A stretch of DNA of 64,000 nucleotides from Prescottella equi. GTDB lineage: Bacteria > Actinomycetota > Actinomycetes > Mycobacteriales > Mycobacteriaceae. Each line of letters opens with the position of its first letter. The first letter of the stretch is position 1. This document shows, piece after piece, positions 36,629-62,787 of the stretch. Made by a program: the position numbers and the translations under genes. The stretch covers positions 434,001 through 498,000 of the forward strand of contig NZ_LWTX01000002.1 in the NCBI RefSeq assembly GCF_002094305.1, read 5' to 3'. Under the pieces are notes generated by a model. That model had not been told where the DNA came from and did not search any database. It saw only the letters and a program-made list of their open reading frames with translations.

Positions 36629-37705
36629 TCAGCCGCGGCGAGTGGCGACCGCGGCGGCGAGACGGTCGAGCGTCGAGGCCGTGGTGTCCCAGTCGATGCA
36701 GGCGTCGGTGATCGACTGGCCGTAGGTCAGTTCGTCGGACCTGCCCAGCGTCAGGTCCTGGCGGCCCGCCTCGATGAAGCTCTCGAGCATGATGCCCACG
36801 ATCCCCTTCTCGCCGGCCTCGATCCGCTCGGCGACGTCGGCGGCGACGTCGACCTGCTTGTTGTGGTCCTTGCGGCTGTTGCCGTGACTCGCGTCGATCA
36901 CGACCCGCTCCGGAAGACCCGACTTCGCAAGGCGCGCAAGGGTGTCCGCGACGGTCTCGGCGTCGTAGTTCGGCCCGTCGGTGCCGCCACGCAGGATCAC
37001 GTGGCAGTCCGGGTTCCCGACGGTGTGGATCAGCGCGGCCTGCCCCTCGAGATCGGTGCCCGGGAAGACGTGGCTCGCGGCCGCGGCGCGGGTGCCGTCG
37101 ACCGCAACCTGGACGTCGCCCTCGGTGGAGTTCTTGATACCCACCGGCATCGACAGCGCGCTGCACAGCTGGCGGTGCACCTGGCTGGCGGCGGTGCGGG
37201 CACCGATCGCGCCGTAGGTGACCAGGTCGGCGATGTACTGCGGGATGATCGGGTCGAGGAATTCGCAGCCGACCGGCAGACCGAGCCGGGAGATGTCCAG
37301 CAGCAGCTTGCGCCCCATCCGCAGGCCGGTGTTGATGTCGAAGGTGCCGTCGAGGTGCGGGTCGTTGAGCAGGCCCTTCCAGCCCAGCGTGGTGCGCGGC
37401 TTCTCGAAGTAGACGCGCATGACGATCTGCAGGTCGTCGCGCAACTCCTCGGCCTTCGCGGCCAGACGGCGTGCGTAGTCCATTGCCGCCTCGGGATCGT
37501 GCACCGAGCACGGTCCGACCACGACGACCAGACGGTCGTCGTCGCCGTTGAGGATGTTGACGGTGTCGGCACGCCCCGAACGCACGGTGGCTGCGGCCAC
37601 CTCGTCGGGAGTGTGCTCGGCGCGCACGACGGACGGCGCCACCAGCGGGCTGACACTGACGGTGCGCTGTTCGTCGAGACGCTGGTCGTTTGCGATAGCA
37701 GTCAT
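36629..37705 (-). CDS. aroG: 3-deoxy-7-phosphoheptulonate synthase, class I (AroF/AroG/AroH type)
   Basis: 358 aa, of the E. coli AroFGH class: VVVVGPCSVHDPEAAMDYA, MRVYFEKPRTTLGWKGL, GRKLLLDI, LRGGTDGPNYD and DASHGNS supply PEP, E4P and metal sites. It condenses PEP with erythrose-4-phosphate, the entry to the shikimate pathway. Feedback residues cannot be assigned by eye. The gene is preceded by a 158-bp leader with an aromatic-rich leader ORF and hairpins, so transcription is probably attenuated by charged Tyr, Phe or Trp tRNA. aggaaa lies 9 bp before the ATG. Confidence 0.95.
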   Translation of the reverse strand: MTAIANDQRLDEQRTVSVSPLVAPSVVRAEHTPDEVAAATVRSGRADTVNILNGDDDRLVVVVGPCSVHDPEAAMDYARRLAAKAEELRDDLQIVMRVYFEKPRTTLGWKGLLNDPHLDGTFDINTGLRMGRKLLLDISRLGLPVGCEFLDPIIPQYIADLVTYGAIGARTAASQVHRQLCSALSMPVGIKNSTEGDVQVAVDGTRAAAASHVFPGTDLEGQAALIHTVGNPDCHVILRGGTDGPNYDAETVADTLARLAKSGLPERVVIDASHGNSRKDHNKQVDVAADVAERIEAGEKGIVGIMLESFIEAGRQDLTLGRSDELTYGQSITDACIDWDTTASTLDRLAAAVATRRG

Positions 37706-37757
37706 GGGGTTCGGTTTCCTGTTCTCAGGCCGACCCTCGAAGACTGAAGAATCCAGT

Positions 37758-37779
37758 GAGCCGGTCTGTCATCCGGCTC
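37758..37779 (-). terminator. Attenuator-like hairpin in the aroG leader
   Basis: GAGCCGG (read on the minus strand 37779-37773) and CCGGCTC (37764-37758) pair over 7 bp with an 8-nt loop, and CCA/TGG outside can extend the stem. It lies 15 bp after the leader ORF stop and 52 bp before the aroG start. A T-containing stretch (ATTCTTCAGTCTT) follows. In addition, TGTCAGCG at the leader ORF start (37862-37855) is complementary to CGCTGACA at its stop (37800-37793), an alternative pairing. Confidence 0.55.
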
Positions 37780-37794
37780 TGGGGTGGAAGATTG

Positions 37795-37863
37795 TCAGCG
37801 CGTGGTTACGCCGACCGACCCACCCGGGGCCGGCCTGCTAAACCAGAAATAGGTCGCTGACAC
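37795..37863 (-). CDS. Leader peptide with Tyr-Phe-Trp-Phe run (aroG attenuator)
   Basis: 22 residues: MSATYFWFSRPAPGGSVGV then TTR, from a GTG at 37863 to a TGA at 37797-37795. Residues 5-8 are Tyr-Phe-Trp-Phe, all three aromatic amino acids made by the pathway that the next gene starts. A TACTGT box (37876-37871) ends 7 bp before the GTG, so the transcript probably begins at the start codon and the leader is translated without a ribosome site. Stalling at the aromatic codons would alter which downstream hairpin forms. Coding role is inferred from content and context. Confidence 0.65.
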   Translation of the reverse strand: MSATYFWFSRPAPGGSVGVTTR

Positions 37864-37974
37864 GTCGACCACAGTAGCGCGGGCCGCCCGGACATGCAGC
37901 AGCGCCCCCGTGAACGAGACCACGATCACACCTAGCGGGCACCCGGCCCGTAGCCCCTCCCACGCACCGAACCC

Positions 37975-38002
37975 TTGACATACAACCGATCAGTTGTATG
38001 TT
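37975..38002 (+). promoter_or_regulatory. ArsR-regulated promoter: TTGACA, palindrome, TATGTT
   Basis: A -35 TTGACA (37975-37980) and -10 TATGTT (37997-38002) are 16 bp apart. Between and over them lies a palindrome with perfect 9-bp arms ACATACAAC (37978-37986) and GTTGTATGT (37993-38001). Bound regulator would block RNA polymerase. The predicted start falls about 7-8 bp after the -10, at the GTG at 38010. Confidence 0.8.
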
Positions 38003-38009
38003 TGCCGGT

Positions 38010-38351
38010 GTGAGCGGAGATGACGAGGACCGGGCGGACGCCCTGTTCCACGCGCTCGCCGACCGCACCCGGCGCGACATCCTGCGCCGCGTCCTGGCCG
38101 GAGAGCACTCGGTTTCCGCGCTCGCCGAGAAGTACGACATGAGCTTCGCCGCCGTGCAGAAGCACGTTTCCGTGCTGCAGAACGCCGGCCTGCTCACCAA
38201 ACGGCGTCGCGGGCGCGAGCAGTTGGCCAGTGGCGACGTGGCCGCGGTGCGCTCGGTGGCCTCCATGCTCACCGAGCTGGAGGACGTCTGGCGCGGGCGC
38301 ATCGCACGTATCGACGAGCTCATCGCACTCGACTCGACCAAGGAGGACTGA
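38010..38351 (+). CDS. ArsR-family repressor
   Basis: 113 aa from the GTG at 38010. The ATG at 37998 lies inside the -10 box, so the GTG is preferred and translation is leaderless. Winged HTH: FHALADRTRRDILRRVLAGE and MSFAAVQKHVSVLQNAGLLT, a group in which a SRPBCC gene follows. No Cys metal site is present, so it is not an arsenic sensor. It probably represses its own two-gene operon through the palindrome that overlaps the promoter. Confidence 0.85.
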   Translation: MSGDDEDRADALFHALADRTRRDILRRVLAGEHSVSALAEKYDMSFAAVQKHVSVLQNAGLLTKRRRGREQLASGDVAAVRSVASMLTELEDVWRGRIARIDELIALDSTKED

Positions 38352-38354
38352 GCA

Positions 38355-38840
38355 ATGCCTGTCACCGATGTTTCGCACGATCTCGAGAACCGCACCCTGA
38401 CGATCACCGCGCAGTTCGCGGCTCCGGTGGAACGGATCTGGCAGATCTATGCCGACCCCCGCCAACTGGAGAAGGTGTGGGGGCCGCCGGCCTGCCCCGC
38501 GACGGTGGTGGACCACGAACTCGTACCGGGCGGACGGGTCACGTACTTCATGACCGGTCCGGAAGGTGAGAAGTACGCGGGCTACTGGGAGATCGCGGCG
38601 GTGGACGAACCGCACAGTTTCTCGTTCGCCGACGGCTTCGCCGACGAGGACTTCAATCCGAATCCCGAACTGCCCGTGTCGCAGAACGTCTACACGTTCA
38701 CTGCACACGACCGGGGCACGCGGGCGACGTACACGAGCACATTCGAGTCCGCAGAGGGCCTGCAGAAGGTGCTGGACATGGGCGTCGTCGAGGGTGCGAC
38801 GTCGGCAATCAACCAGATCGACGGCGTTCTGACGGCCTGA
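38355..38840 (+). CDS. SRPBCC/AHSA1-type ligand-binding protein
   Basis: 161 aa, 3 bp after the ArsR gene. The START/Bet v1-like fold is shown by AQFAAPVERIWQIYADPRQL and WGPPACPATVVDHELVPGGR near the N-terminus and a long C-terminal helix (GLQKVLDMGVVEGATSAINQ). ArsR-SRPBCC pairs are very common in actinobacteria; the bound ligand is unknown. Confidence 0.85.
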   Translation: MPVTDVSHDLENRTLTITAQFAAPVERIWQIYADPRQLEKVWGPPACPATVVDHELVPGGRVTYFMTGPEGEKYAGYWEIAAVDEPHSFSFADGFADEDFNPNPELPVSQNVYTFTAHDRGTRATYTSTFESAEGLQKVLDMGVVEGATSAINQIDGVLTA

Positions 38841-44640: not shown

Positions 44641-44862
44641 TCGTGAGGAGCCCCGAAGACCGCCGCCGGCGTCGAAGCATCCGTGGTCGTGAGACCGGCG
44701 GATGTGAGAGGGAACCCGGTGGAAATCCGGGACTGTCCCGCAGCGGTGAGTGGGAACGACCGCCGTCATGAGCACTGGACCGACAGGTCCGGGAAGCGAC
44801 GGCCAGTAGGTTTCGCCGGGTCGATTCCCGGCCGAGCGCCCACGAGTCCGAAGACCTGCCGA
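44641..44862 (+). ncRNA. Cobalamin riboswitch upstream of metE
   Basis: The B12-box and flanking helices are present in order: GAGGAGCCCCGAAG near 44645, GAGGGAACCCGGTGGAAATC near 44708, GGGACTGTCCCGCAGCGGTG, CCGGGAAGCGACGGCCAGTA near 44798 and GAGTCCGAAGACCTGCC ending at 44860. It is nearly the same sequence as the switch before metF. B12 binding should shut off metE when the B12-dependent enzyme can work. Confidence 0.95.
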
Positions 44863-55414: not shown

Positions 55415-55582
55415 TCCGGATCGCGATCTTGTAGTGTGCCACTCGACGCAGGGAACACCGGTGCAAATCCGGGGCTGTCCCGCAACTGTCACCGAGGAGC
55501 GAACCCCCAACGCTCGGCCACGACCCCACCGGGTTGGAAGGCCGGGGGCGAGCGCTGATCCGGGAGCCAGGACACCTGTGTC
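55415..55582 (+). ncRNA. Cobalamin riboswitch upstream of the ABC transporter
   Basis: Conserved blocks: GCAGGGAACACCGGTGCAAA near 55449, then TCCGGGGCTGTCCCGCAACT, a variable arm (GAGCGAA to GGCCGGGGGCGAGCGC) and GGGAGCCAGGACACCTG ending near 55579. It is more distant from the other two switches and lacks their GGCCAGTAGG arm sequence, so it belongs to a different subtype. The core ends about 50 bp before the transporter start. Confidence 0.9.
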
Positions 55583-55630
55583 GAGGCCACGACACCCCGT
55601 GCCGTGGCCAGGACGACCACGAGGATGGAA

Positions 55631-62411: not shown

Positions 62412-62577
62412 CGTGATTCGTGGGTCTTTCCGGTCGGTCCGAGAGGCCGCCCACGGCTGCACTCACCCACGAAGCCCCTGAATCGAGCGCTCTGACGCGC
62501 ATCGTGATGCCACGAGGGTACGCACACCCACTCCTCGAGGCGGCACACCGCCGGATGCGGCGCACCCGGCACAGTGG

Positions 62578-62787
62578 GCAGGTCTTCGGACTCGCAAGCG
62601 CCCACGTCGTCCGACGTGAACCTACTGGCCGTCGCTTCCCGGGCTCGTGACAACTGAGACCCAGTGCTGGTGACGGCGGTCGTTCCTGCTCACCGCTGCG
62701 GGACAGTCCCGGATTCCCACCGGGTTCCCTCTTCGTGCCTTGCAAGGCACTTCGACGCCGGCCAATAACCTTCGGGGCTCCTCACGG
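62578..62787 (-). ncRNA. Cobalamin riboswitch upstream of metF
   Basis: Read on the minus strand: GTGAGGAGCCCCGAAGG (62787 on), GCCGGCGTCGAAG, GAGGGAACCCGGTGGGAATC, GGGACTGTCCCGCAGCGGTG, CCCGGGAAGCGACGGCCAGT and CGAGTCCGAAGACCTGCC ending at 62578. It is almost identical to the metE switch in every block. A following GCCGGGTGC/GCATCCGGC stem mirrors the metE platform hairpin. About 166 nt of leader remain before metF. Confidence 0.95.

Follow-up and report, generated by a model that had tools for sequence, protein, structure and literature searches.

The aroG leader locus

Directly upstream of aroG, a type I DAHP synthase gene, lies a short ORF with four consecutive aromatic codons. The question raised is whether this ORF reports the supply of aromatic amino acids to the gene, and whether transcription or translation of aroG is then the step that responds. 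The locus is considered within the 64,000 nt stretch of Prescottella equi DNA that was analysed (the window). The leader is read here as a ribosome-stalling attenuator of aroG, with a probability of about 0.93. Initiation of aroG translation is somewhat favoured as its main output, perhaps together with termination.

All elements of the locus are on the minus strand. The regulated gene, aroG (37705–36629; DAHP_synth_1, PF00793, E 4.4e-85), encodes a protein whose closest named relatives are 95–97 % identical to it. The leader ORF, VSATYFWFSRPAPGGSVGVTTR (37863–37795, TGA stop included), has 22 codons from a GTG start and reads GTG TCA GCG ACC TAT TTC TGG TTT AGC AGG CCG GCC CCG GGT GGG TCG GTC GGC GTA ACC ACG CGC TGA, with the putative regulatory codons TAT TTC TGG TTT (Tyr-Phe-Trp-Phe, YFWF) at 37851–37840. 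A −10 element, TACTGT (37876–37871), is separated from the GTG by a 7 nt spacer. The segment at the 5′ terminus, S1 (TGTCAGCG, 37862–37855), is perfectly complementary to the ORF end with its stop (CGCTGACA, 37800–37793). In the middle of the ORF, S2 (CAGGCCGGCCCCGGGTGGG, 37837–37819, codons RPAPGG) is able to pair with S3 (CCACCCC, 37787–37781) and with S5 (GGGTCGGCCTG, 37736–37726). A terminator-like hairpin, GAGCCGG-N8-CCGGCTC, follows S3 at 37779–37758, here without a U tract. The aroG Shine-Dalgarno (SD) sequence, AGGA (37720–37717), is enclosed by a second hairpin, with S5 as the 5′ arm and S6 (CCGAACCC, 37714–37707) as the 3′ arm. The original prediction had described the 22-codon Tyr-Phe-Trp-Phe ORF ahead of the DAHP synthase gene accurately, as direct reading confirms; its perfect complementarity between ORF start and ORF end was borne out, and the GAGCCGG hairpin that it placed 3′ of the ORF is present.

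When all 713 short-ORF stops of the window, on either strand, are considered, the leader is the only short ORF (8–45 aa) to contain four consecutive aromatic codons. The sequence TATTTCTGGTTT occurs once in the 5.2 Mb genome, the remaining three YFWF-coding places using TACTTCTGGTTC. No Rfam element, T-box or other, exceeded its gathering score at the leader locus. The same genome also carries a type II DAHP synthase gene, trpE and pheA; in the 500 nt upstream of the type II gene, pheA and the best two of five trpE-model matches, no leader with an aromatic run turned up. A 1200 nt scan gave only one short ORF (MWYWKPTSRTPGKPTR), at 953 nt 5′ of the type II match and with no −10 element; it is not counted.

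Several neighbouring features were observed in passing. An inverted repeat, ACATACAAC-N6-GTTGTATGT (37978–38001), overlaps the start of a divergent ArsR-type regulator gene (37998–38351, plus strand, with HTH matches) and is likely to be the operator of that regulator. The next gene (38355–38840, plus strand) has, by eye, a SRPBCC/AHSA1-type look. Three cobalamin riboswitches scored above the Rfam gathering threshold within about 18 kb (44677–44859 and 55415–55597, plus strand; 62560–62768, minus strand).

Start of transcription

A TANNNT motif ends 6–8 nt 5′ of the start codon in 174/174 leaders picked by regular expression, at exactly 7 nt in 157 of them, and at random positions of the same regions in 42/3480, although the script favoured starts with a −10 among alternatives and the spacing figure is somewhat inflated as a result. 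No consensus −35/−10 promoter pair was found in a scan of 37650–37960, so that the promoter call depends on the −10 element and on the conservation of its distance from the start. The leader ORF is probably leaderless, with transcription starting at the GTG. The leaderless start proposed originally is borne out in so far as TACTGT lies 7 nt 5′ of the GTG, at a spacing conserved in relatives, and a start at the GTG itself is probable.

Distribution and forms of the leader

The YFWF run is present in 70/80 named related loci, and YWF occupies the same place in 2/80. Other aromatic runs are found at three of these loci (L077, L079 and L080) and none at three (L069, L070 and L081); one (L078) has an unrelated ORF. 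A further leader, AYWRF at L076, was at first overlooked since its match starts elsewhere. The conservation of the aromatic run in relatives, suggested originally as a check, was therefore found.

Within the family, 170/201 genomes gave a match, and an aromatic leader precedes the gene in 39 of 40 upstream regions chosen for spread over genera; the exception is a second gene copy. At the level of the order (52 of 74 other listed places, our own choice), an aromatic-dense leader was found in 31/52 regions. The 21/52 without one are the whole set of 11 regions with the label f16 plus 10 more, among which 6 belong to second or further copies; one region counted among the 21 (L131) has a chance aromatic ORF. 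At the level of the class (20 of 34 further genomes that gave a match, likewise our choice), 13/20 regions have an aromatic-dense leader, while all 7 without it carry the label f31 and two of these have chance ORFs. In a Corynebacterium-like genus the gene is present in 20/81 genomes and preceded by an aromatic leader in 17/20, being without it at L210, L212 and L213.

The forms of the leader are lineage-specific, and include YFWF, YYWF, YWRF, SYRWF, WYAYF, RFYF and RYPYF. The 174 leaders picked from 213 upstream regions (the regular expression overlooked three true leaders, L062, L063 and L071) contain Phe, Trp and Tyr in 162 cases and only Phe and Tyr in 12. A covariance model of the YFWF type matched in 86/201 family genomes, once per genome, and 86/86 matches precede aroG: 82 by coordinates, 53–107 nt ahead on the same strand, and the remaining 4 according to fetched sequences and tblastn. 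Some places were entered twice (L171/L196, L077/L172 and L045/L174), so that raw counts of T tails and codons are inflated; the permutation tests used dereplicated sets.

Some relatives depart from this pattern. Type I DAHP synthase genes without an aromatic leader occur in Antrihabitans cavernicola and Nocardia crassostreae (L069, L070) and at a second copy (L189); L069 and L070 have the motif GCAGGCCGAAGGATT in common just 5′ of the ATG. Asanoa siamensis (L072), of the Micromonosporaceae, has a Nocardia-like leader (VQRQYWFTPPARVG) that differs from the SYRWF form seen in genomes with the label f15, and horizontal transfer of leader and gene is possible. Several aroG matches in genera labelled g2 and g5 and in others (e.g. 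G109, G034 and G500) contain one in-frame TGA within the matched stretch, which is perhaps merely an earlier C-terminal stop.

Codon choice and constraint on the RNA

In the leaders, with repeats of some places counted, 181/186 Tyr codons are TAT and 207/301 Phe codons are TTT, against 3/441 and 0/363 in aroG of 72 named loci; in aroG of Corynebacterium-like loci the values are 9/117 and 18/170. The same choice of TAT and TTT recurs in clades with differing leaders, and tuning of decoding therefore seems a more likely reason for the rare codons than pairing alone.

What is conserved might instead be the peptide itself, as a small functional product or an arrest peptide, and not a sensor that reads codons, and the core YFWFxxPAxGG is indeed well conserved within the clade. 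The pattern of conservation makes this very improbable. Four of the five P-A-x-G-G codons are nearly invariant at synonymous positions (CCG in 91, GCC in 92, GGT in 90 and GGG in 90 of 92 leaders), the ORF end is CGC-TGA in 90/92, and the N terminus varies by frame while its 5′ CAGCG is kept, as in ATGCAGCGC (Met-Gln-Arg, MQR) versus GTGTCAGCG (Val-Ser-Ala, VSA). Other clades alter the PGG part (e.g. LEE, LEG) and the partner 3′ of the stop alters along with it, and the aromatic residues change order between YFWF, YWRF, SYRWF, RFYF and WYAYF. That the ORF is a chance ORF or overlapping coding noise, for which GTGs upstream in frame with it might speak, is scarcely credible given its conservation across genera, its placement and its codon choice.

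Pairing within the leader

The leader RNA of the window folds more stably than dinucleotide shuffles (z −4.5). A consensus fold computed from 20 leaders joins S2 to S3 and the adjoining GAGCCGG, forming an antiterminator-like helix, and pairs the FWF codons with the 3′ arm of the GAGCCGG hairpin; the hairpin is thereby excluded. Across clades (46 dereplicated leaders), the leader segment after the aromatic codons pairs better with the 55 nt 3′ of its own stop than with the corresponding stretch of other leaders (mean −31.4 versus −28.2 kcal/mol; z −6.6, 0/5000 permutations). The signal comes from the 32 non-YFWF leaders (z −6.7, 0/5000), in 25/32 of which the best duplex includes a GGAGCC-like segment 3′ of the stop, and the 14 leaders of the YFWF type do not show it (z +0.84). 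In the window and some other YFWF rows, the best duplex fell in the GAGCCGG/CCGGCTC arms and not in CCACCC. The YFWF sequences hardly vary, and the case for S2:S3 pairing in the window is made by homology and by the consensus fold.

The remaining pairings of the ORF gave less. No covariation was detected between S1 and the ORF end (26 dereplicated leaders); this null, like those for S2:S3 and the GAGCCGG hairpin within the clade, is attributable to arms that hardly vary. RNAalifold returned only a sparse consensus for 42 dereplicated full leaders (2/73 leaders, L016 and L017, were left out beforehand, as the script found no aroG start). For S2:S5 the covariation is weak, 91/2000 permutations being equally good (26 leaders). 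The S2:S5 pairing extends in the window so that UUUCUGGUUU of the YFWF codons meets GAACAGGAAA around the SD; against base-shuffled targets this extended duplex stands out as strong in the window (z −4.5), but all 50 shuffles are beaten in only 9/26 leaders.

The SD hairpin and the terminator-like hairpin

The helix with clear covariation in the clade of the window is the stem that encloses the SD, in which GGGYCGG and the bases preceding it (S5) pair with those just 5′ of the aroG ATG (S6). Its arms co-evolve: in 26 dereplicated leaders, own arms pair at −8.37 and foreign arms at −5.83 kcal/mol (z −6.6, 0/2000 permutations), with a z of 0.14 for a control arm. Compensatory pairs include CGTGGG/CCCACG, TTCGGG/CCCGAA and TGCGGG/CCCGCA; the stem of the window itself is short (−5.5 kcal/mol). 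The 26 leaders derive from 87 rows left after 10/97 YFWF-type rows were dropped, 4 in which no ATG was found and 6 in which an S5-like motif was absent by regular expression, and the test may thus favour species that fit. With looser windows, the signal has z −3.1 for YFWF (control −1.4, N 22), −2.5 for YWRF (control −0.4, N 19), −2.4 for the mixed rest (control −0.3, N 8) and −1.1 for RFYF (control −0.8, N 8). From these values in other groups, the SD hairpin may extend beyond the clade of the window. The covariation of pairing that the original prediction had looked to is thus found in the SD hairpin, whereas the two pairings that it named, ORF start with ORF end and the GAGCCGG hairpin, show little variation in the clade.

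The output could alternatively be transcriptional, either by intrinsic termination or through Rho. In the former case, as reported for aroR/aroF of C. glutamicum, a stall would allow an antiterminator to form between S2 on one side and S3 with the GAGCCGG arm on the other, and GAGCCGG/CCGGCTC would otherwise terminate. The mutual exclusion in the consensus fold and the co-varying homologous pairing in the 32 non-YFWF leaders agree with this, as do the T-tailed hairpins of 19/22 Corynebacterium-type leaders (repeats of some places counted) and the T7 that follows the hairpin in Aldersonia (L045). For the clade of the window, termination as the output is nevertheless rather unlikely. T-tailed hairpins occur in only 9/98 YFWF-type leaders (repeats again counted), and in 75/83 YFWF rows the 8 nt that follow the GAGCCGG hairpin hold no more than two T; in the window no terminator-like site was found in 37650–37960, the hairpin being followed by ACTGGATT and no U tract. 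The lack of covariation within the YFWF type weakens both this explanation and S2:S3 in the window, and in folds of the truncated RNA the hairpin loses pairs at the Tyr stall only (6.96 to 4.41). Weak U tracts may suffice for actinobacterial RNA polymerase, which would weaken the objection from the missing T tail. Rho-dependent attenuation, in which leader translation and structure would govern access of Rho between the leader stop and aroG, would suit the lack of a T-rich tail in most of the clade, and the available part of an actinobacterial survey (PMC1262725) weakly suggests Rho for the cys leaders of mycobacteria. It is improbable here, as the stretch is short and strongly structured and the co-evolution of the SD hairpin would need a separate explanation. 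The original reading of an attenuator at the pathway entry enzyme is upheld with respect to a conserved, probably leaderless aromatic leader peptide; that the GAGCCGG hairpin ends transcription is open to doubt in the clade, where most species have no T-rich tail and the SD-enclosing hairpin is well supported.

Ribosome position and the amino acids that may be sensed

In the favoured translational form of the attenuator, transcription would begin at the leader GTG, as the conserved −10 spacing suggests, and a ribosome would translate the emerging RNA. With charged aromatic tRNAs it would reach the stop and cover part of S3; the GAGCCGG hairpin would then be formed and the aroG SD masked, in the species of the window mainly through pairing with the YFWF codons and also by the S5:S6 hairpin around the SD. 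If charged tRNAs for Tyr, Phe or Trp ran short, a stall on TAT TTC TGG TTT would presumably follow, and the ribosome would cover the codons that act against the SD. S2 would be free for S3 and S5 and the SD exposed, if the switch runs in this direction.

Static folding with approximate ribosome footprints, which depends on footprint size and ignores kinetics, was used to model these states. In the window, the predicted unpaired probability of the SD is 0.10 without a ribosome, 0.11 with one at the stop, 0.63 at the Tyr stall and 0.50 at the Trp or last Phe stall. Openness over the stretch from SD to ATG is 0.61 (none), 0.61 (stop), 0.81 (Tyr), 0.45 (Trp) and 0.36 (last Phe); the lower values at the last two stalls than without a ribosome arise because the SD hairpin then forms. 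Over 26 leaders the corresponding means are 0.37, 0.37, 0.50, 0.40 and 0.34, with the Tyr stall more open than the stop state in 15/26 leaders and less open in 1. When the window RNA is cut after the GAGCCGG hairpin, the hairpin has 6.96 pairs (none), 6.97 (stop), 4.41 (Tyr), 6.58 (Trp) and 6.97 (last Phe); in the full-length RNA it is formed in every state (6.5–7.0 pairs). Mutually exclusive 2:3 and 3:4 helices can both be drawn, and neither co-varies within the YFWF type.

In this static model, both the SD and the hairpin respond clearly only to the Tyr stall. Since clear derepression is predicted at that stall only, sensing of all three amino acids is unproven, and the model supplies evidence against a simple ‘any aromatic’ sensor.

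Relation to known leaders

The aroF gene of C. glutamicum encodes a type I DAHP synthase, and Neshat reportedly described an aroR-aroF attenuator there in 2014, with aroR leaderless. According to the available parts of two papers, the aroR leader is a Phe-Tyr-Phe leader ahead of aroF that acts as an attenuator, and it responds to Phe limitation but not to Tyr limitation (PMC11802643, PMC4046766). The supposition that no case had been described in this group thus has to be given up. In both systems an aromatic leader peptide precedes a DAHP synthase gene, in the window as a short ORF with aromatic codons directly 5′ of it. The RFYF leaders at 17/20 loci of the Corynebacterium-like genus are similar, and many of them pair mid-leader with a GGAGCC-like segment 3′ of the stop. 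The Corynebacterium type has a Phe-Tyr-Phe core, with Trp just before it (WRFYF) in 9/17, and T-tailed hairpins, whereas in the clade of the window the run is Tyr-Phe-Trp-Phe, the T tail is mostly missing and the SD hairpin co-varies. Given the same kind of gene, the same place, a related core and mid-leader pairing, the leader is filed as a variant of the aroR kind with a different codon set and probably a different output.

Leaders that report several related amino acids are also on record, contrary to the original statement that classical leaders sense one: the LVVI leader of Mycobacterium tuberculosis ilvB1 (PMC13236596, as far as its available text goes) and, in a source available in part, IlvL of Streptomyces lividans, both for branched-chain amino acids. 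The LEU element of actinobacterial leuA, in the available portion of its description, has a regulatory codon run predicted to pair with the leuA SD (PMC1262725), and the S. lividans leuA leader is reported, also in a partial source, to be leaderless and to have no typical terminator. Pairing of the codon run with the SD is likewise predicted in the window fold, with weak covariation over 26 leaders, but the LEU element belongs to leucine and leuA and is described with a pseudoknot, and the YFWF leader, with its other gene and amino acids, is not filed as a member. Mycobacterial poly-Cys leaders (Canestrari 2020, as cited in the available part of PMC13236596) share a leaderless short ORF, which is probable here, and exert attenuation at the level of translation; they differ in cysteine, in the cys genes and in a codon run near the stop (PMC1262725, available part), the YFWF run lying near the start. 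The U-tract intrinsic terminator of a classical trp-type attenuator was found neither in the window nor in more than 9/98 YFWF-type leaders.

The available part of the 2005 survey of Actinobacteria gives no conserved RNA structure for phenylalanine or tyrosine operons (PMC1262725). The searched literature, which includes available parts of PMC8079986 and PMC6892785 and covers subscription journals thinly, yielded no description of the YFWF form with Trp; its DAHP synthase leader descriptions, likewise from partly available texts, concern C. glutamicum alone, and others may exist elsewhere.

Significance

A broader picture is offered tentatively. In Rhodococcus, Nocardia and relatives, the aromatic codons may double as a three-amino-acid sensor and an anti-Shine-Dalgarno sequence of aroG, in which case a ribosome halted there would release the aroG start. 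Corynebacterium may keep an ancestral termination attenuator that elsewhere turned translational, with lineage-specific adjustment of the sensed set (Tyr and Phe, or Tyr, Phe and Trp) and of the rare codons that end in U.

The one DAHP synthase leader so far described, aroR, becomes part of a group found across several actinobacterial families, in which the set of aromatic codons differs by lineage, and the clade of the window shows an apparent shift from termination to control of the SD. The near-universal TAT and frequent TTT codons in GC-rich genomes are a testable sign of sensitivity tuning. The leaders form a set of natural variants for studying how a ribosome-based sensor is rewired, and may be of relevance to aromatic-compound engineering in Rhodococcus.
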